From positions 1 through 23,830 of IMG/VR virus record IMGVR_UViG_3300025586_000117: a DNA stretch of 23,830 nucleotides; one strand, written 5' to 3'. This DNA comes from a virus. Shown piece after piece: positions 711 to 8,277 of this stretch. The position numbers were made by a program, and so were the translations under genes. The notes under the pieces are model-generated. The model did not search any database and had not been told where the DNA came from. It worked only from the letters and a program-made list of their open reading frames with translations. Numbering within the stretch: position 1 is the stretch's first letter; every line of letters begins with the position of its first letter.

Positions 711-1187
711 ATGATTAAGAAGTGTTATTGCGGTAGGGAATTTATTACCTATCCATCAAAAATTAAATTAGGTCGTGGAAAGTATTGTAGTAAAGAATGT
801 TGCTTAAAAGTAACCAACAAGGTTTTAGAGAAGAATGGAAAGAAAACACGATTTACTAAGGGACAAAACGCTTGGAATAGAAAAGAATTTGTTATTACCA
901 AGGGAAGATTGAACGGCAAGAGATATAAGTTAATCTATAAGCCAGAACATCCATTTGCGACAAGAAAAGGATATGTTAGAGAACACAGACTTATAATGGA
1001 AGAGCATATAGGAAGATATTTAACTAAAAACGAGGTCGTACATCATAAAGACGGAGATACATTAAATAATAATATAAATAATTTAGAGTTACTAAGCGGG
1101 AGCGAACATCGTCGTTTACATTTAAAAGACAATGTTCACAAACGCTGGGAAGGATACGAATCCCGCTCTACTGCCCTATGCAAATAG
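711..1187 (+). CDS. HNH homing-type endonuclease (158 aa)
   Basis: This is probably a free-standing homing nuclease. The N-terminus has a small Cys cluster (C5, C7, C26, C30, C31) that may bind zinc. The HNH core spans about residues 90-138: REHRLIMEEHIGRYL, then VVHHKDGDTLNNNINNLELL with H111, H112 and D114, and the closing SEHRRLH. This fits the HNH_3-type family of phage endonucleases. Its stop (TAG 1185-1187) overlaps the apparent terminase start (ATG 1178-1180), so the two genes are translationally coupled. It follows the competing-hairpin leader at 640-710. The terminase P-loop about 90 bases downstream is broken by a frame change, which may be linked to past homing at that site. DNA target and activity are inferred from the family. 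Confidence 0.85.
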   Translation: MIKKCYCGREFITYPSKIKLGRGKYCSKECCLKVTNKVLEKNGKKTRFTKGQNAWNRKEFVITKGRLNGKRYKLIYKPEHPFATRKGYVREHRLIMEEHIGRYLTKNEVVHHKDGDTLNNNINNLELLSGSEHRRLHLKDNVHKRWEGYESRSTALCK

Positions 1188-2661
1188 AAATAAAACCTAC
1201 CATAAAGCAAGACCTCGCTTGGTCTGCTTTACAAGATAGTATAATTAAATATATAGGTTTTGGCGGTGGAGCGGGAGGTTGAATGGCGGAAAGAGTTGGC
1301 TTGGAGCAGAATGGCTTACAACTAATTGTCACTTCTATCCAGGTTCACGTTGGTTTATTGGCAGAAATGAGTTGAGTCGTTTGATGAAGAGTTCTTTTAT
1401 AACATTTGAGAAGGTGTGTACTTTTCACGGAATTAGTCGTGATAGTTGGAAATTAAACGGACAATACAACTATATTGAGTTTGTGAGTGGTATGGCTAAG
1501 GGAAGTCGAATAGACCTCTTAGACCTCAAGTATCAGCCTTCAGACCCTATGTATGAACGACTAGGGTCACTTGAATATACTGGTGGTTGGATAGAAGAAG
1601 CTGGTGAGATAGATTTTATGGCATTTGATGTCTTAAAGTCCCGTATAGGTCGTCATAGAAACGATGACTATAAGCTAACCCCAGCCAAAATGCTTATTAC
1701 CTTCAACCCTAAGAAAAACTGGTTATATCAACTATTCTACAAACCCAAGAGAGATAGAACCTTACCTAAAGAATATGAGTTCATTCAGTCCTTATATGGA
1801 GATAATCCATTTACAGCTAAGACTTATGGAGAGGATTTGAAAGAAATTAAGGACAAAGCTACTAAACAGCGTCTTATGTTTGGAAACTGGGATTATGAAG
1901 ACAGTTCCAAAGCTATATGTAATTATGACGCTTTAGTAGATGTATTTAGTAATACGATTAATAAGACAGAAGACAAATATCTTTTAGTAGATATCGCAGA
2001 TGACGGCTCAGACAAGACCGTCTTCTCATTCTGGGAAGGACTAGAAGAATATCGCAGAGAGTCATTTGAACACCTAACCACAGAACCGATTATAGACAAG
2101 ATACGTGAGTATGCTAGAGATGACCGTATCCCTTACTCTCACGTAGCTGTAGATGCCATAGGAGTAGGGACGGGTGTAGCTAATAGCTCAATGTTAGACG
2201 GGATTATAGGCTTTAAAAGCTCTTTTTCAGCTATTAAGACAGACGACAACATAGTCAGACTTCCAAATGTCTCTTATACGAAGAACGCTCCTCTTGTATC
2301 TAACTACAAGAACTTAAGAGTTCAATGTATCTATACACTTGGAGAGCTTGTCAACAATCATAAAATCGCAAGCCAAATGGAAGGCAAGTTAAAGGACGAA
2401 ATTATTGAAGAGTTATCAGTTTATAAAGACACTACTAAAGACGATAACAAGCGAATGGCGACCACAAAAGACGAAGTTAAAGAGTTAATAGCTCGTAGCC
2501 CAGACGCTTCAGATTGTTGGCTCATGAGAATGTATTTTATAATTAAGGGCAAGATGTTAACCGACCAACCTCTAGAAAGTTCGTTCGCAACAAACTCTCA
2601 AAGTGAAATTTTTGATAAAAATGAAGAATCTAATAAAACTAAAATAAATTCTAACAAATGA
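1178..2661 (+). CDS. terL: Terminase large subunit, with a frame change inside the P-loop
   Basis: This is the ATP-driven DNA-packaging motor and headful nuclease, acting at the portal. ATG 1178 opens 34 codons ending GFGGGAGG and then TGA (1280-1282). The rest of the protein runs from 1279 in the -1 frame, beginning LNGGKSWLGAEW. Together they give a P-loop, but with extra bases: removing the eight bases 1280-1287 would give GGGAGGGKSWLG in one frame. Numbering from 1279, a Walker B-like GGWIEEAGE lies at 102-110 and the coupling motif TFNP at 141-144. Nuclease aspartates appear in LLVDIADDGSD (D238), VAVDAIG (D292) and SPDASDCW (about 412-419). Everything after 1279 is intact for 460 codons, so selection has kept it. 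Either a recent indel, an assembly error, recoding or a TTG restart at 1279 explains the split. Family identity is secure; the start is not. Confidence 0.85.
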
Positions 2662-2673
2662 TGGGGAAAAAAT

Positions 2674-3132
2674 ATGAACAACGAAGGAAAAAATAAAACT
2701 TGGTGGATATTCCCACTAATAGCCGTACTAGTTCTTGGAGGAATTAGTGGATTTATAGGTTGGAATCTACAGAAAAACATAGAGCCAGATTTGACTAGTG
2801 TTATTGTCGGTGGAGAATATCACGCTACTTCAACAGCAAAAATGTCTGGTGTATTAGCAAAGGCAGCTGAATTTAACCAACTAATTAAAACAGCTGAATA
2901 TAGTTCAGTTACATTAGGTTCAATTATAGTCGCTTCAACAACAGCACACGCAATGAATATCTATAATGCCACATCAACCGATGCTCTTGTTAATGGTGAC
3001 GCAACATTCATAACAAGATTGTCGTCATCAACTCCACGAGGAACATACACCTACGATATAGCCCTTGATGATGGGTTAGTTGTCCAGTTACAAGCAGGTT
3101 ATACAGGCGATTACGTCGTGACATATAGGTAG
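2674..3132 (+). CDS. Membrane-anchored small beta-rich protein (152 aa)
   Basis: ATG 2674 follows a GGGG-containing weak binding site, 12 bases after the terminase stop. Residues about 10-31 (WWIFPLIAVLVLGGISGFIG) form one hydrophobic segment after a Lys-containing start, so it is a signal anchor or signal peptide. The remainder has alternating short strands, with HATSTAKMSGVLAKA, SSVTLGSIIVASTTAHAMNIYNATSTD and a closing GTYTYDIALDDGLVVQLQAGYTGDYVVTYR. The ending resembles small beta-sandwich virion decoration modules. A membrane anchor between terminase and portal genes is unusual for a capsid component. It may be a host-surface or exclusion protein, or a virion protein that carries a cell-derived signal. 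I do not recognise a named family. Confidence 0.65.
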   Translation: MNNEGKNKTWWIFPLIAVLVLGGISGFIGWNLQKNIEPDLTSVIVGGEYHATSTAKMSGVLAKAAEFNQLIKTAEYSSVTLGSIIVASTTAHAMNIYNATSTDALVNGDATFITRLSSSTPRGTYTYDIALDDGLVVQLQAGYTGDYVVTYR

Positions 3133-3149
3133 AAATTAATAAATAAATT

Positions 3150-4979
3150 ATGGATGATATAAGTATAAGTGATTTAGTCAGGGATATGGAGCAAAATGAT
3201 ATCTCTGGCAAAACAACTATTGGAAAATATGTAAAGTTCAGTCAACGTGAAACAATAGAAACGATTGACGCCTACTTAAATTCTAAACATATTTCTGGGG
3301 AAACCGACAGTAAAGGTAGGGAAAAACCCTTCTTTAATATCGTAACTGCTGCTCGGAACATCTGGTTCAGAGCTACCGACATAGACCGAAAGAACATCAA
3401 GATTAAAGCAACCAAAGAATCTATGCTGGGTCTGTCAATGGTAGCAACTATTAAACTTCAGGAGTGGATGCGTAAATCTGGATTTGGAATGTTCCTCAAT
3501 GACTGGGGACTTTCACTTGCGAGTTATGGTTCATCTATCCCAAAGTTTGTAGAAAAAGATGGCGAACTTACCTGTGAAACAATTCCTTGGCAAAGAATGA
3601 TAGTTGACGCAGTAGATTTTGAAAGTAATCCTCAAATTGAAAAGATATGGATGACACCCGCTCAACTTCTTAAAAAAGATTATAACCAAGAAATAGTAGA
3701 AAAACTTTTAGACGCTTTAGAGGCACGTGAAACTTCTGATGGACAGGACAAGGATAACAAAGCTGACTATATCCCAATATATGAAGTTCACGGCGAATTA
3801 TCATTAATGTATCTTACAGGAAACAAAAAAGATGAAGATGAGTATGTTCAGCAAATGCACGTCATTTCATTTCTTGAAGGAAAAGAAGAAGGAGAATGGG
3901 ACGACTACGATTTATATATGGGCAGAGAAGAAAAAAACCCTTATATGATTTCACACCTAATCCCTATTGATGGCAGGACACTCTCAATCGGTTCAGTAGA
4001 ACATCTCTTTATGGCTCAATGGATGGAAAACCACACCTCAAAGAATATCAAAGACCAACTAGACCTTGCTTCAAAGTTAATCACTCAAACAGCAGATACA
4101 AAGTTTGCTGGCAGAAATGTATTAGACTCTATTGAAACAGGCGACATACTTACTCACGGTATCAACCAGCCCCTTACACGCATAGACAACCACGCAGATA
4201 TACAAGCTCTCCAATCCTTTGGAGACCAATGGAAGAAAATAGGAAACGAAATAACTGGAGTATCAGAAGCAATGCTTGGAATGTCAGCCAAATCAGGAAC
4301 AGCTTGGCGACAAACAGAAGCTCTCCTCCAAGAGTCCCACGATTTATTTGAACAGATGACAGAAAACAAAGGACTCTATTTAAAACAAATGCTAACCGAC
4401 TACATAATCCCTCACATTAAAAAGAAAATGAACACATCAGAAGAATTATCCGAGATTTTAGAAGACCACCAAGTAGCCGCCCTAGACGCAAGATTTGTCC
4501 CGAACAAAGCTATTAAGGTAGTCAATCAGAAGATGAAAGACGCAATCCTTTCTGGCAAAGCGTTCACTGAAGAACAACAACAAGAAGAATTAGGAATTGC
4601 TACCGATACAATCCAAAACGCTTTATCCTCTATGGGTAATCAAAGATTTATCAAACCGTCAGATGTCCCTAACAAAACTTGGAAAGAAGTAATGAAAGAT
4701 TTAGAGTGGGAACTTGAATACGACATTACAGGTGAAGCAAAGGACTCACAAGCAATAATGGCAACTCTAACAACCGTTCTTCAATCACTCGCTGCTAATC
4801 CGCAAATGCTAGATGACCCTAGGGCAAAACTATTATTTTCTAAAATATTGAATGAAGCAGGTGGAGTTTCACCAGTGGAACTCGCAGGACCTGCACCAAG
4901 ACCAGCTCCCCAAGAGATGGGTAGTCCACAAAATGGACAGGTCGGAGCTAGTCAGCAACCAATGCAACCAACACAATGA
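3150..4979 (+). CDS. Portal protein (609 aa)
   Basis: The product should form the dodecameric ring at one capsid vertex, through which the terminase packages DNA and to which the tail adaptor binds. It lies directly downstream of the terminase, has typical portal length, and shows portal-like features. An N-terminal alpha/beta part includes the MIVDAVDFESNPQIEKIWM region. The stem and crown helices begin around residues 365-410 (EITGVSEAMLGMSAKSGTAW, then RQTEALLQESHDLF), followed by a helix ending HIKKKM. The C-terminus is Pro/Gln-rich and disordered (PAPRPAPQEMGSPQNG). Its TGA stop overlaps the next ATG (ATGA at 4976-4979). Assignment rests on gene order and helix pattern rather than on one diagnostic motif. 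Confidence 0.8.
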   Translation: MDDISISDLVRDMEQNDISGKTTIGKYVKFSQRETIETIDAYLNSKHISGETDSKGREKPFFNIVTAARNIWFRATDIDRKNIKIKATKESMLGLSMVATIKLQEWMRKSGFGMFLNDWGLSLASYGSSIPKFVEKDGELTCETIPWQRMIVDAVDFESNPQIEKIWMTPAQLLKKDYNQEIVEKLLDALEARETSDGQDKDNKADYIPIYEVHGELSLMYLTGNKKDEDEYVQQMHVISFLEGKEEGEWDDYDLYMGREEKNPYMISHLIPIDGRTLSIGSVEHLFMAQWMENHTSKNIKDQLDLASKLITQTADTKFAGRNVLDSIETGDILTHGINQPLTRIDNHADIQALQSFGDQWKKIGNEITGVSEAMLGMSAKSGTAWRQTEALLQESHDLFEQMTENKGLYLKQMLTDYIIPHIKKKMNTSEELSEILEDHQVAALDARFVPNKAIKVVNQKMKDAILSGKAFTEEQQQEELGIATDTIQNALSSMGNQRFIKPSDVPNKTWKEVMKDLEWELEYDITGEAKDSQAIMATLTTVLQSLAANPQMLDDPRAKLLFSKILNEAGGVSPVELAGPAPRPAPQEMGSPQNGQVGASQQPMQPTQ

Positions 4980-5566
4980 ACAAAACAGAAAAAAAGCAGA
5001 TAAAACGCAAACTACAAGACCTAAATAAAAATACAAGATTTACAACCGAAGAACTATCGCTAATCTCAAATACATTTTTTGAAAATGATGATGTGCTCAA
5101 GGCAGTCCGCAAGTTCTTCCTACAAGCTGAATTAGAACCACAAGAACAAAATATAATTGACGGACTCTCACAGCAAACAATAGCACTACTTCGCAAACAA
5201 CTACTTCCAGAGATAAACGCCGACTCACCTTTTTACCAGAACAGAGATATGTGGACATCAATCAAGACAGATGAGAAACTCGCAGAAGATGTTTACCTTG
5301 ATATGAAAGCCCAAGACATAGCTATTAGATATCTAGAAGAACAGTTTGATAGATTAATAGGAAACTTTGATGATAATACGATAAGACTAAAAGAACTTGT
5401 ATTTAACAGTAAGAAAGACCCAGATGAAGCGTTCGCTGACTTAAAAGCAAGAAACACACTTTTACTTCACATAGACGCATACATTGATGAATTAAGAGTC
5501 ATCGCAATAAACAACGCAAAGATAGACGATGACGATAAGATTAAAAAACTTGATTCGAATAAATAA
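4976..5566 (+). CDS. Unknown head-module protein (196 aa)
   Basis: The ATG overlaps the portal stop by four bases, so translation is coupled. The protein is acidic and largely helical, with KKQIKRKLQDLNKN at the start, a long helix around EDVYLDMKAQDIAIRYLEEQF, and an Asp/Lys-rich C-terminus (KIDDDDKIKKLD). There is no signal peptide, metal site or protease motif. Its place between portal and scaffold suggests a role in capsid assembly, perhaps as a portal-associated or minor head protein, but this is positional inference. I do not recognise the family. Confidence 0.6.
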   Translation: MNKTEKKQIKRKLQDLNKNTRFTTEELSLISNTFFENDDVLKAVRKFFLQAELEPQEQNIIDGLSQQTIALLRKQLLPEINADSPFYQNRDMWTSIKTDEKLAEDVYLDMKAQDIAIRYLEEQFDRLIGNFDDNTIRLKELVFNSKKDPDEAFADLKARNTLLLHIDAYIDELRVIAINNAKIDDDDKIKKLDSNK

Positions 5567-5607
5567 TCATAATTGGACAAGGAGAGTCCTTAAAATATCC
5601 TATAATT

Positions 5608-5715
5608 ATGGCAGAAAAAATTGATGACCAGAACATCTTAAAATCTGAAGTTGACGGCGAAAAGTATCCAAAGCTATTTAAAGCTACGGAACTTGCGGGC
5701 AACTATAAAATATAA
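5608..5715 (+). pseudogene. Orphan N-terminus of a scaffold-like gene, interrupted by an HNH insertion
   Basis: ATG 5608 opens 35 codons, ending NYKI and TAA at 5713-5715. Residues 11-35 (LKSEVDGEKYPKLFKATE, then LAGNYKI) resemble residues 15-46 of the scaffold-like protein at 6242 (LKEIDGEQFPKLYATTE, then SSNYKI). The DNA is identical for 11 bases, AACTATAAAAT at 5701-5711 and 6368-6378, in the same codon phase in both copies. Joining the copies there would give one in-frame scaffold gene without the HNH gene. The ORF is therefore best read as the cut-off front of an older or donor version of the scaffold gene. It could still be translated as a 35-residue peptide; TATAAT at 5601-5606 lies next to its start. 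Confidence 0.6.
5701..5711 (+). repeat. Direct repeat copy 1 flanking the HNH cassette
   Basis: AACTATAAAAT occurs here in the orphan scaffold N-terminus and again at 6368-6378 in the scaffold gene. Both copies are in the same codon phase (Asn-Tyr-Lys-Ile). The 667 bases from one copy to the next include the whole HNH gene. Confidence 0.6.
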
Positions 5716-5719
5716 ATAT

Positions 5720-6202
5720 ATGCCATCAGGAATTTACAAAAGAACACCAGAAATGAAAAAAAAGCTTTTTGTAAGTGGTGGAACTCCTTGGAATAAAGGC
5801 AAGACAGGTATCTATTCCAAAGAAACTCTTGAAAAAATAGGAAAAAATAATCCTAATTATAAGGGTGGTATTACTACAGGCGAAAAAAGGAAAGGTTATG
5901 TTGATAATTATAACCGAGATTATAGGAGAAAAATGAGAAGTAATACATTAGATATAATGGGTGGCAAATGTGTAATGTGTGGATTTAATGATTACAGAGC
6001 ATTACAGATTGACCACATAAATGGTGGTGGGAATAAAGAAAGAAATAAAAAAAAGTTCATTGGACAACAGAAAAATTATCATAAGATGGTAATAGAAAGT
6101 TTCTTAAAAAAAGAGAACAAATACCAACTTCTTTGTGCTAATTGTAATTGGATAAAAAGATGTGAAAATAAAGAAGTTAACGGCATTAAAAATAAAAAAT
6201 AA
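5720..6202 (+). CDS. HNH endonuclease with NUMOD-like N-terminus (160 aa)
   Basis: This homing-type nuclease is inserted between two copies of a scaffold 5' end. I choose ATG 5720, because the upstream TTG-started extension to 5651 only re-reads the orphan scaffold N-terminus in another frame. Residues about 22-50 (TPWNKGKTGIYSKETLEKIG, then NPNYKGG) look like the DNA-binding NUMOD3-type helix found in HNH homing enzymes. The nuclease part has C84 and C87 (CVMCG), D98-H99 (LQIDHINGGG), then C139 and C142 (LLCANCNWIKR): an HNH core with a structural four-Cys zinc site. The C-terminus is Lys/Asn-rich. Codon use is more AT-rich than in the flanking head genes, consistent with a mobile gene. Confidence 0.85.
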   Translation: MPSGIYKRTPEMKKKLFVSGGTPWNKGKTGIYSKETLEKIGKNNPNYKGGITTGEKRKGYVDNYNRDYRRKMRSNTLDIMGGKCVMCGFNDYRALQIDHINGGGNKERNKKKFIGQQKNYHKMVIESFLKKENKYQLLCANCNWIKRCENKEVNGIKNKK

Positions 6203-6212
6203 TTAATTAATT

Positions 6213-6229
6213 GGGCGAGAATAACGCCC
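6213..6229 (+). promoter_or_regulatory. Short GC hairpin ahead of the scaffold-like gene
   Basis: GGGCG (6213-6217) pairs with CGCCC (6225-6229) across the seven-base loop AGAATAA, 12 bases before ATG 6242. It stands out in AT-rich DNA. No T-run follows, so a translation or RNA-processing role is more likely than termination. Confidence 0.35.
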
Positions 6230-6241
6230 TTAAACAAATCT

Positions 6242-6814
6242 ATGACAACACAAAAAGGGATGGACACCTTAAGTCCAACAGAAGCACTTAAAGAAATAGA
6301 TGGAGAACAATTTCCAAAACTCTACGCTACAACCGAAAGGTTGGCTAAAGCAGAAGAATTAAGTTCCAACTATAAAATTCGTGCCGAAAAAGCTGAAGCC
6401 GAGAGTAAAGAACTCAAAGCTAAAGCAGAAGTAGAGCCTTCTAAAAAGCCAGAGGAGACCCCAACTCCTACAAAGGAAACGGAGACACCAACTCCTAAAA
6501 ATGACTATTCCTTACAAGATATTAGAGCTTTATCAAAAGTTCACGACGACGACGTAGAAAGAGTCACCAAGTTCGCAAAGGGCGAAGGTGTATCTGTCGC
6601 CGAAGTTATGAAAGATAAAGACCTAAAAGCTATCTTAAAGAATAGAAACGAAGAACGAAAAACAGCTAAAGCTACTTCAACTGGCAAGGGCAAACGTGGA
6701 ACTTCTAAAGTTTCAATAAAGTCCATTAAAGACAAAGCAAACAAATACGAAGATTTAGAGTCAGATGAAGATTACGACGCATTAGTTGATTCTCGTTTAA
6801 AACAGTCAAGATAG
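6242..6814 (+). CDS. Capsid scaffolding-like protein (190 aa)
   Basis: This likely internal scaffold guides capsid assembly and is then removed. It sits immediately before the major capsid gene, the usual place. The sequence is highly charged and mostly helical: a coiled-coil segment at about residues 30-62 (ATTERLAKAEELSSNYKIRA, then EKAEAESKELKAKAE), a disordered Pro/Thr/Glu linker (about 63-87), and a Lys/Arg-rich helical C-terminus that could bind the shell. ATG 6242 gives the longest form; ATG 6260 (MDTLSPTEAL) is also possible. Residues 15-46 are echoed by the orphan ORF at 5608, separated from it by an HNH gene. No protease signature is visible, so any maturation protease is elsewhere or absent. 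Confidence 0.65.
   Translation: MTTQKGMDTLSPTEALKEIDGEQFPKLYATTERLAKAEELSSNYKIRAEKAEAESKELKAKAEVEPSKKPEETPTPTKETETPTPKNDYSLQDIRALSKVHDDDVERVTKFAKGEGVSVAEVMKDKDLKAILKNRNEERKTAKATSTGKGKRGTSKVSIKSIKDKANKYEDLESDEDYDALVDSRLKQSR
6368..6378 (+). repeat. Direct repeat copy 2 flanking the HNH cassette
   Basis: This is the second AACTATAAAAT, inside the scaffold-like gene at codons 43-46. Recombination or excision between the copies would give a continuous scaffold reading frame. Confidence 0.6.
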
Positions 6815-6833
6815 AGATGGGTGCCTCAGGGTA

Positions 6834-6875
6834 AATCGTTGACTCAATCAATTAACGCTGATGGGAGCAACGATT
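6834..6875 (+). promoter_or_regulatory. Hairpin leader just ahead of the major capsid gene
   Basis: AATCGTTG (6834-6841) is a perfect complement of CAACGATT (6868-6875). The 26-base interior contains a further ATCA/TGAT pairing. The structure ends four bases before ATG 6880, so it abuts the ribosome binding region of the most heavily expressed structural gene. It may set translation rate or protect the 5' end of a processed mRNA. Confidence 0.5.
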
Positions 6876-6879
6876 AAAT

Positions 6880-7764
6880 ATGGCGAATACAATGACTTCC
6901 GCCACATATTACGAATTTACTATGCACCGACGCAAGTACAGACTTGCATCGTTTGATAAGTTACTTCGTAAGGCATTAGTGGCAGAAAAAGTTTGTACAG
7001 TTGATAGAACTGGGAATATGTATATTAACAATCCTTATGGTTCTCAACCTACAACAGTAGTACAAACACTAACAGGAACATATAGTCCAGCAACATTCAC
7101 AATCGCTGATGACAGCTTGGTTGTCACAGACGAATTTGTTGTTGGCGAACACATCTATCATCACGAAAAGGTCTTCTCAAAGTTTGACCTTTATATGAAT
7201 AGGATAGATGAGCAAAACAACTCAATTGCTACAGCATTAGACAAATGGGCATTAAACGAGCTTTGTACAAATGGTAATGGAGCTTACACAACTCCAGCAG
7301 GCGGTTTCACAACAGCAGCTAACGTTATTCCTATTTTATCCAACCTACTTTCAAAAGTAGCAGGATTCTCAAATGCTGGAAAGAATTACTACTTAGTAAT
7401 TGAAAACACAGACCTTCCAGGATTTATTCAAGCATTTGGAGCAGCAGGATTTAACACAGCAGACGCTTGGTTAAAGAACGGATACATCGGTAGCCAAATG
7501 AATATTGACTTCTACGTTGTCCGAACAGGAACATTCGCAGATGCTACTACCTCAACAGCTTCAGGAACTAAGACTTGGACTAACTCAGGACACAGAGTTT
7601 TCGGAGTTAAAGGTGCAGCAACGTATGCCGCTCCAAGAGGAGTTCATTATGACGAGTTTGGAAGAACTGGTTATACTGGTAGAGAAATATCAACCTATGG
7701 ATACTGTGGCTTTAAGCAATGGACAAGCACACAGGACTTAACCATTGATATAACATTAACATAG
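6880..7764 (+). CDS. Major capsid protein (294 aa)
   Basis: The shell-forming protein is inferred from gene order (terminase, portal, scaffold, this gene), size and composition. The N-terminus is helical (YYEFTMHRRKYRLASFDKLL), followed by a beta-rich part with TVVQTLTGTYSPATF and the helix around FDLYMNRIDEQNNSIATALD. The C-terminal half is Gly/Ala/Thr-rich with GYIGSQMNIDFYVVR, VFGVKGAATYAAPRGVHY and GREISTYGYCGF, the kind of A-domain strands seen in HK97-fold capsid proteins. Codon choice is more regular than in the neighbouring HNH genes, consistent with high expression. A leader hairpin precedes it and another hairpin follows. I do not see a named subfamily. Confidence 0.8.
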   Translation: MANTMTSATYYEFTMHRRKYRLASFDKLLRKALVAEKVCTVDRTGNMYINNPYGSQPTTVVQTLTGTYSPATFTIADDSLVVTDEFVVGEHIYHHEKVFSKFDLYMNRIDEQNNSIATALDKWALNELCTNGNGAYTTPAGGFTTAANVIPILSNLLSKVAGFSNAGKNYYLVIENTDLPGFIQAFGAAGFNTADAWLKNGYIGSQMNIDFYVVRTGTFADATTSTASGTKTWTNSGHRVFGVKGAATYAAPRGVHYDEFGRTGYTGREISTYGYCGFKQWTSTQDLTIDITLT

Positions 7765-7765
7765 A

Positions 7766-7785
7766 ACACAATTATATGATTGTGT
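7766..7785 (+). terminator. Hairpin directly after the capsid gene
   Basis: ACACAAT (7766-7772) pairs perfectly with ATTGTGT (7779-7785) across the loop TATATG, two bases after the capsid stop codon. There is no T-run, so it may be a 3'-end stabiliser or weak attenuator rather than a true terminator. It leads straight into the HNH gene. Confidence 0.4.
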
Positions 7786-7797
7786 CAAGCAATACTT

Positions 7798-8277
7798 ATG
7801 AAATATATTAAAACAGGACAAAAACGTTCAGATGCCAAGAGAAAACTAAAAATAATGGTTGATGATACTGATTATAAGTATCTTAATAGTTTTTCTTGGC
7901 AAGTAAGTAAAGAAAATACAGTAGTTGCGAGAATAAATAAAAGAACTATTCTTATGTCGCGTTTAATAATGAATGCTCCAGAAAATTTAGAGGTTGACCA
8001 TATAAGTGGGAATCGTCTAGATAATCAGCGTTCAAATCTTCGTCTTGCTACGAGTTCTCAAAATAAGATGAACCGTGGACCAAGAAAAGATAATAAATGT
8101 GGATATAAGGGAGTATCGTGGCACAAACAAAACAAGAAATGGACGTCAAGAATAATGGCTAATGGTAAATATCAGCATTTAGGTCTGTTTGATAATATAT
8201 TAGACGCAGTTGAAGCATATAATTCAGCTGCTAAAAAATATTTTAAGGAATTTGCTTGGACAAATAGTTTAAGTTAA
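7798..8277 (+). CDS. HNH endonuclease with AP2 DNA-binding domain (159 aa)
   Basis: This is the third homing-type nuclease of the head module and belongs to a different subfamily from the other two. ATG 7798 is preferred; an upstream TTG at 7780 only adds six residues that read through the post-capsid hairpin. Residues about 45-90 form the HNH core: ARINKRTILMSRLIM, then LEVDHISGNRLDNQRSNLRL, with the Asp-His pair and two Asn. Residues about 103-150 form an AP2-type DNA-binding domain (YKGVSWHKQNKKWTSRI, then YQHLGLFDNILDAVEAYNSA). HNH_3 plus AP2 is a common layout in phage and intron nucleases. The last codon overlaps the first arm of the switch-like element at 8273. It probably arrived as a mobile gene between the capsid gene and its downstream partner. 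Confidence 0.9.
   Translation: MKYIKTGQKRSDAKRKLKIMVDDTDYKYLNSFSWQVSKENTVVARINKRTILMSRLIMNAPENLEVDHISGNRLDNQRSNLRLATSSQNKMNRGPRKDNKCGYKGVSWHKQNKKWTSRIMANGKYQHLGLFDNILDAVEAYNSAAKKYFKEFAWTNSLS

Follow-up and report, generated by a model that had tools for sequence, protein, structure and literature searches.

A probable HNH homing-endonuclease insertion in phage coding sequence and the substitute gene end it appears to carry

The usual view is that a homing endonuclease gene can inhabit conserved coding sequence only with the help of an intron or intein, and otherwise lies between genes. Among described systems, the closest analogue of the arrangement considered here is the "hybrid gene" formed by mobile ORFs (mORFs) in fungal mitochondria, as in atp6 of Allomyces and Glomus. 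Such genes have been described in Allomyces macrogynus (atp6) and Glomus sp. (atp6, atp9, cox2, and nad3), and the duplicated C-termini of Glomus atp6 share 63.5% identity at the DNA level and 91% at the protein level (PMC3630166). As in the fungal genes, an endonuclease ORF lies within a gene, a foreign replacement stands in for the severed end, and the native end is orphaned in the window (the whole 23,830-nucleotide stretch of viral DNA that was analysed) and at the loci L093/L094, L085, and L062. The fungal mORFs, however, encode LAGLIDADG or GIY-YIG endonucleases, are mitochondrial, and replace C-termini only (PMC3630166), whereas the elements described here encode HNH endonucleases, occur on phage contigs, and replace either an N-terminal end (scaffold, methyltransferase) or a C-terminal one (terminase); in addition, exact empty alleles were found here. 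A preliminary description of this DNA knew of no standard name for the arrangement; there is a close precedent, at the opposite gene end and in fungal mitochondria (PMC3630166).

Phage systems offer partial likenesses. The seg and mob genes of T4-like phages are likewise phage-borne, free-standing homing endonuclease genes outside introns, with co-conversion of flanking sequence and, in several, a probable coupling of translation to the upstream gene; a term search of the review describing them found no account of a carried replacement gene end (PMC2988022). A literature search of open-access papers found no phage precedent for such a carried end. In another phage, a homing endonuclease gene divides the essential gene for a nucleotide reductase into two parts that both work, and in both cases a coding sequence is interrupted and function survives, gene continuity being predicted from sequence in ours; the reductase halves work as separate peptides, whereas here one complete gene would be rebuilt and the severed piece made redundant (PMC10448857). 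The loci reported here represent a third way into phage coding sequence, which their matched filled and empty alleles make directly testable, and they suggest a possible route to mosaic ends in phage structural and packaging genes.

All features of the window locus lie on the plus strand. An orphan ORF at 5608–5715, translated as MAEKIDDQNILKSEVDGEKYPKLFKATELAGNYKI and a stop, is the severed native front end of a putative scaffold gene. Its 35 codons run through NYKI, matching the front of the uninterrupted gene in contig L002 and the type seen uninterrupted in contig L003, and end at a TAA stop (5713–5715) that arises at the junction. The insert (5712–6378, 667 bp including one repeat copy) is missing from L002, which joins window position 5711 to 6379 with a single repeat copy. 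Repeat search and alignment to L002 place its left and right edges at two copies of the direct repeat CAACTATAAAAT, at 5700–5711, where the alignment breaks, and at 6367–6378. The preliminary description had correctly seen a repeat shared in the same codon phase, but gave its length as 11 bases; it spans 12, with 667 from start to start, and encodes NYKI in both copies. The insert comprises, in order, 8 nt, an HNH endonuclease ORF of 160 amino acids (5720–6202; ATG at 5720, 4 nt past the orphan's stop codon), a leader (6203–6241), which aligns with the leader of a homologous gene in contig L028, and a divergent front end (6242–6366), which matches L028 and does not occur in L002. The native remainder of the gene (6379–6814), identical to L002 over its full length, is now read from the ATG at 6242, and the resulting scaffold-type gene, whose N-terminus is MTTQKGMDTLSPTEALKEIDGEQFPKLYATTERLAKAEELSSNYKIRAEK, remains open in the filled allele. 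It is a putative scaffold gene by position alone, between upstream head genes and a putative major capsid gene (6880–7764); profile searches gave it no family match. The leader contains an inverted repeat, GGGCG (6213–6217) and CGCCC (6225–6229). Short inverted repeats of this kind (GGAC...GTCC, GGGCG...CGCCC, GGCG...CGCC), followed by TTAAA or TAAAA, stand upstream of scaffold-type genes at 5576–5590 and 6213–6229 of the window and at about 3856–3875 of L028.

When their translations were compared by Smith-Waterman alignment of translated flanks, the two front ends were 52% identical over 29 columns, with a local score of 72. As a control, upstream and downstream flanks from different HNH loci were paired in all combinations (4970 pairs). 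These had a 99.9% quantile of 63, and a score of 72 was not reached by any cross pair that included the window locus, so the kinship of the two N-termini that had been proposed for this locus is upheld. The replacement end differs in protein sequence as well as in DNA; it is divergent, not synonymously recoded.

The enclosed gene had been read as an HNH gene, and it does match PHROG HNH families (E 2e-12 for the best, to 4e-7). The CxxCG, DH, and LCANCNWIK residues are invariant across the window HNH and 15 relatives (16 sequences), and an HNH assignment was obtained at all four loci with duplicated gene ends. The Pfam HNH match to the window protein was sub-threshold only (E 0.1). An AlphaFold model (mean pLDDT 73.6) returned only non-significant Foldseek matches, the top ones being HNH or endonuclease VII-type nucleases, and a profile search of PDB sequences with the HNH gave no match. 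Among known phages, the window locus had no DNA match and the HNH protein had distant matches only; a known-phage HNH adjoining a portal gene (L311) showed no duplicated gene end.

The evidence comes throughout from metagenomic contigs, and a search of viral contigs with the protein of the gene starting at 6242 led to 46 loci. L002, a contig 99.6–100% identical to the window, represents the empty site. It aligns with window positions 969–5711 and 6367–8006, two stretches that overlap only by the 12-base repeat. To the right of the junction (from 6367) 1640 of 1640 bases are identical, and on the left side the two contigs differ at a handful of positions within about 1.8 kb. Its uninterrupted gene, with the front end of the orphan type, begins MAEKIDDQNILKSEVDGEKYPKLFKATELAGNYKIRAEKAEAESK. 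Deletion of one repeat-to-repeat unit from the window thus reproduces what an existing contig has at this site, with the join falling precisely on the repeat, as would be expected from the earlier proposal that removing the sequence between the repeats restores a continuous gene. The same insert is present in a second filled contig, L001, where 23 positions across 10.6 kb depart from the window sequence. Since an uninterrupted gene with the same native-type front end also occurs in the diverged relative L003 (68–78% nucleotide identity), the empty form is most likely ancestral, and the repeats, between which excision had been envisaged, therefore need not be excision sites. A single NYKIRAEK front end, with no orphan or second NYKI copy, was present in 45 of the 46 fetched relatives, a conservation that is partly ascertainment as NYKIRAEK was among the search seeds; a pair of independent conserved N-terminal genes lacking the HNH, the pattern that would have contradicted the proposed insertion, was not seen among them. 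The result is a presence/absence polymorphism at one exact site in near-identical genomes, with the window and L001 filled and L002 empty, and it has a counterpart at a terminase gene, where L093 and L210 are filled and L211 is empty.

Relatives of the HNH gene were fetched and their flanks compared, with about 97 HNH ORFs of the family having usable flanks. A duplicated gene end surrounds the HNH in 4 of these, at independent loci including the window. A tblastn-based scan for duplicated flanks missed even the window locus, which was recovered by Smith-Waterman comparison of translated flanks. Flank scores of at least 52 also occurred in 65 of 2538 non-HNH ORFs, among them shadow ORFs and real repeats. 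Raw scores therefore fail to separate HNH from other ORFs, and significance rests on the per-locus cross-flank controls and on the empty alleles. Extending the flanks to 2 kb produced no further case, and two loci with high flank scores, L079 and L283, were dropped as GC-rich low-complexity noise.

The three further loci involve the front end of a C5 DNA methyltransferase (L062) and the C-termini of terminases (L093/L094 and L085). At L062, the methyltransferase front (Pfam DNA_methylase, E 4e-7) is doubled, with MKILNLYAGIGGNRKS upstream and MKILNLYCGIGGNRKN starting the intact gene, and the first 15 codons of the two copies show 8 synonymous differences and 1 amino-acid change. A search of methyltransferase relatives gave one further filled locus, L132, and otherwise uninterrupted homologues for L062, with no near-identical empty allele. 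Separately, two tandem C5-methyltransferase-like genes with similar starts (MKILNLYSGIGGNR and MKILNLYACLGGNR) were observed at L157:1385–1990 and following.

The terminase layout is the mirror image of that in the window, the replacement preceding the HNH. In L093/L094, a terminase large subunit gene (PHROG, E 7e-15) ending in KAFRGGVVSVEI and a stop is followed by the HNH and then by the leftover KAFKGGVVSVEI, likewise closed by a stop. These two strains are 96% identical over their shared stretch, HNH included, and both ORFs are intact. In another phage, L085, the terminase (PHROG, E 5e-9) ends in KEKTFKGGVTTVNL and a stop, followed by an HNH (L085:2839–3318) whose frame continues in phase into the leftover terminase C-terminus, so that the nuclease ends in KSKEFKGGVANVNI. 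The cassettes of L094 and L085 thus share site and order (C-terminal end, HNH, leftover) in two different phages. An exact empty allele for L093/L094 is provided by L211, in which the terminase gene is uninterrupted. On the right side of the site, 2036 bp of L093 align with L211 at 100% identity; on the left side, 3504 bp of L210, which represents the same contig as L094, align at 98.7%. The filled allele has 410 bp of inserted sequence, with the repeat AAGGCGTTC at both edges. Replacement and native ends differ in 8 of the 10 codons after GCGTTC, the stop included; 7 of these changes are synonymous (counting the stop) and 1 replaces K with R.

Near-identical phages thus carry filled and empty alleles, the insert holds an HNH gene and a divergent front end and leaves an orphan behind, and the layout occurs at three other loci. 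We read the window locus as a free-standing HNH homing-endonuclease element within coding sequence that carries a substitute for the short gene end it severs, and place the probability of this reading at roughly 0.8. We postulate that the HNH protein would cut the uninterrupted gene near the NYKI|RAEK codons, that the break would be repaired from a carrier phage with copying of the element, and that the replacement end would restore the gene while leaving no intact target. Neither half-site of the filled allele should be recut, because the replacement end differs in DNA sequence. Each filled junction retains the native sequence on one side of the site and has changed sequence on the other, a pattern that fits loss of the cut site without proving it. 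Since the orphan's stop lies just before the HNH ATG, translation that begins at the old start signal of the gene is probably coupled to that of the HNH.

More broadly, phage HNH elements may constitute a natural home-and-rescue class, one that repeatedly enters conserved coding DNA of essential genes without intron or intein, a diverged replacement for the severed end, N- or C-terminal, both restoring the gene and destroying the cut site. We hold the odds of this generalisation to be about even. Such elements would parallel, in nature, the engineered drives in which a nuclease is combined with a recoded rescue. The rescue copy of HomeR (home-and-rescue) gene drives is reportedly recoded. By analogy only, the two would resemble each other in having a nuclease aimed at an essential gene that the inserted element itself then restores, while HomeR drives, unlike a phage HNH element, are CRISPR-based insect systems made by design (PMC7968924).

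The most serious alternative, which we consider possible but would not favour, is that the layout is a by-product of intercistronic homing, the replacement end being a co-conversion accident and not part of a portable unit. The donor would then have carried an HNH gene just upstream of an L028-like scaffold gene, and repair would have copied the HNH together with the adjoining gene front, with a right joint in conserved coding DNA and an illegitimate left joint within the gene of the recipient. The replacement front end and leader do find their best match in another phage's gene, that of L028: window positions 6200–6451 match L028 3845–4064 at 70% of nucleotides, and the match extends upstream of the start codon, the replacement leader and start thereby resembling the intergenic region and gene start of L028. 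Together with the empty allele L002, this match supports the earlier suggestion that the mobile gene had brought its own front end. The HNH is absent at that site in L028 and its near-identical contigs, and a search for a donor phage, in which an L028-like gene would be preceded by this HNH, found none. Also in keeping with a by-product, the HNH ORFs close tightly against the flanking gene in 4 of 4 cases, co-conversion of flanks is standard in phage homing (PMC2988022), and most HNH relatives show no duplication. With so few of the family's HNH ORFs (4 of about 97) having the layout, it may be a by-product of ordinary homing and not an evolved unit. Against this stand the recurrence of the layout, which involves three different genes and either gene end, the agreement in order and site of the terminase cassettes in two different phages, and the persistence of the layout in the L093/L094 copies, which are 96% identical with both ORFs intact. 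On the question of whether the nuclease and the gene end repeatedly move as a pair, the two-phage terminase layout leans toward yes and the low frequency toward no.

The reading of the insert as an element that brings a substitute gene end fares better against the remaining alternatives. One of these holds that the scaffold gene, or just its front, was duplicated in tandem before an HNH inserted and decay set in. This would account for the existence of two related front ends; we judge it very unlikely, since L002 and L003 have one copy, the insert's flanks are nearly identical to L002, so that the insert came as one piece, and the closest match to the second front end and its leader is in a different phage. 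Even less credible is a self-splicing intron, a bypass element, or RNA-level excision between the repeats. Removing one repeat unit would indeed leave an open, continuous gene, but the window has no Rfam match at the gathering threshold, group I introns included, and the insert brings its own start codon together with a complete front end, for which an intron would have no use. The HNH ORF does not appear to lie within a recognisable group I intron, and neither RNA splicing nor active excision has to be invoked or finds any support. Metagenomic contigs can in general be chimeric, but an assembly chimera, or two independent small genes, is the least probable reading of all. Nothing specific in its favour was found, the flanks match among two distinct filled contigs and an empty one, a repeat of 12 bases would be short for misassembly, and there is a second, unrelated filled/empty pair (L093–L094/L211).

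Two other regions of the window contain HNH-type genes. After the putative major capsid gene lies an HNH-AP2 endonuclease gene (7780–8277), which L003 lacks, joining about 7758 to 8268. This gene is intergenic and has no duplicated gene end, in contrast to the HNH insert at 5720–6202. The window's terminase gene apparently begins at ATG 1179, in an overlap with the stop codon of a further HNH ORF (711–1187). The terminase reading frame is interrupted in the Walker A region, within 1179–1300, where GGAGGT-TGAATGGC-GGAAAG is read and GGAGGTGGAAAG would keep GGGAGGGKSW open. L001 and L002 share this sequence, so the break is not a one-off error; it may be a repair scar, a frameshift signal, or the sign of a different start. 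The N-terminal half of the window terminase (1279–2661) is of the GFGGGAGG...GGKSW type, while relatives matching its C-terminal half (L003, L012, and L016) have RAGRRSGK or similar, which suggests that the window terminase is a mosaic.
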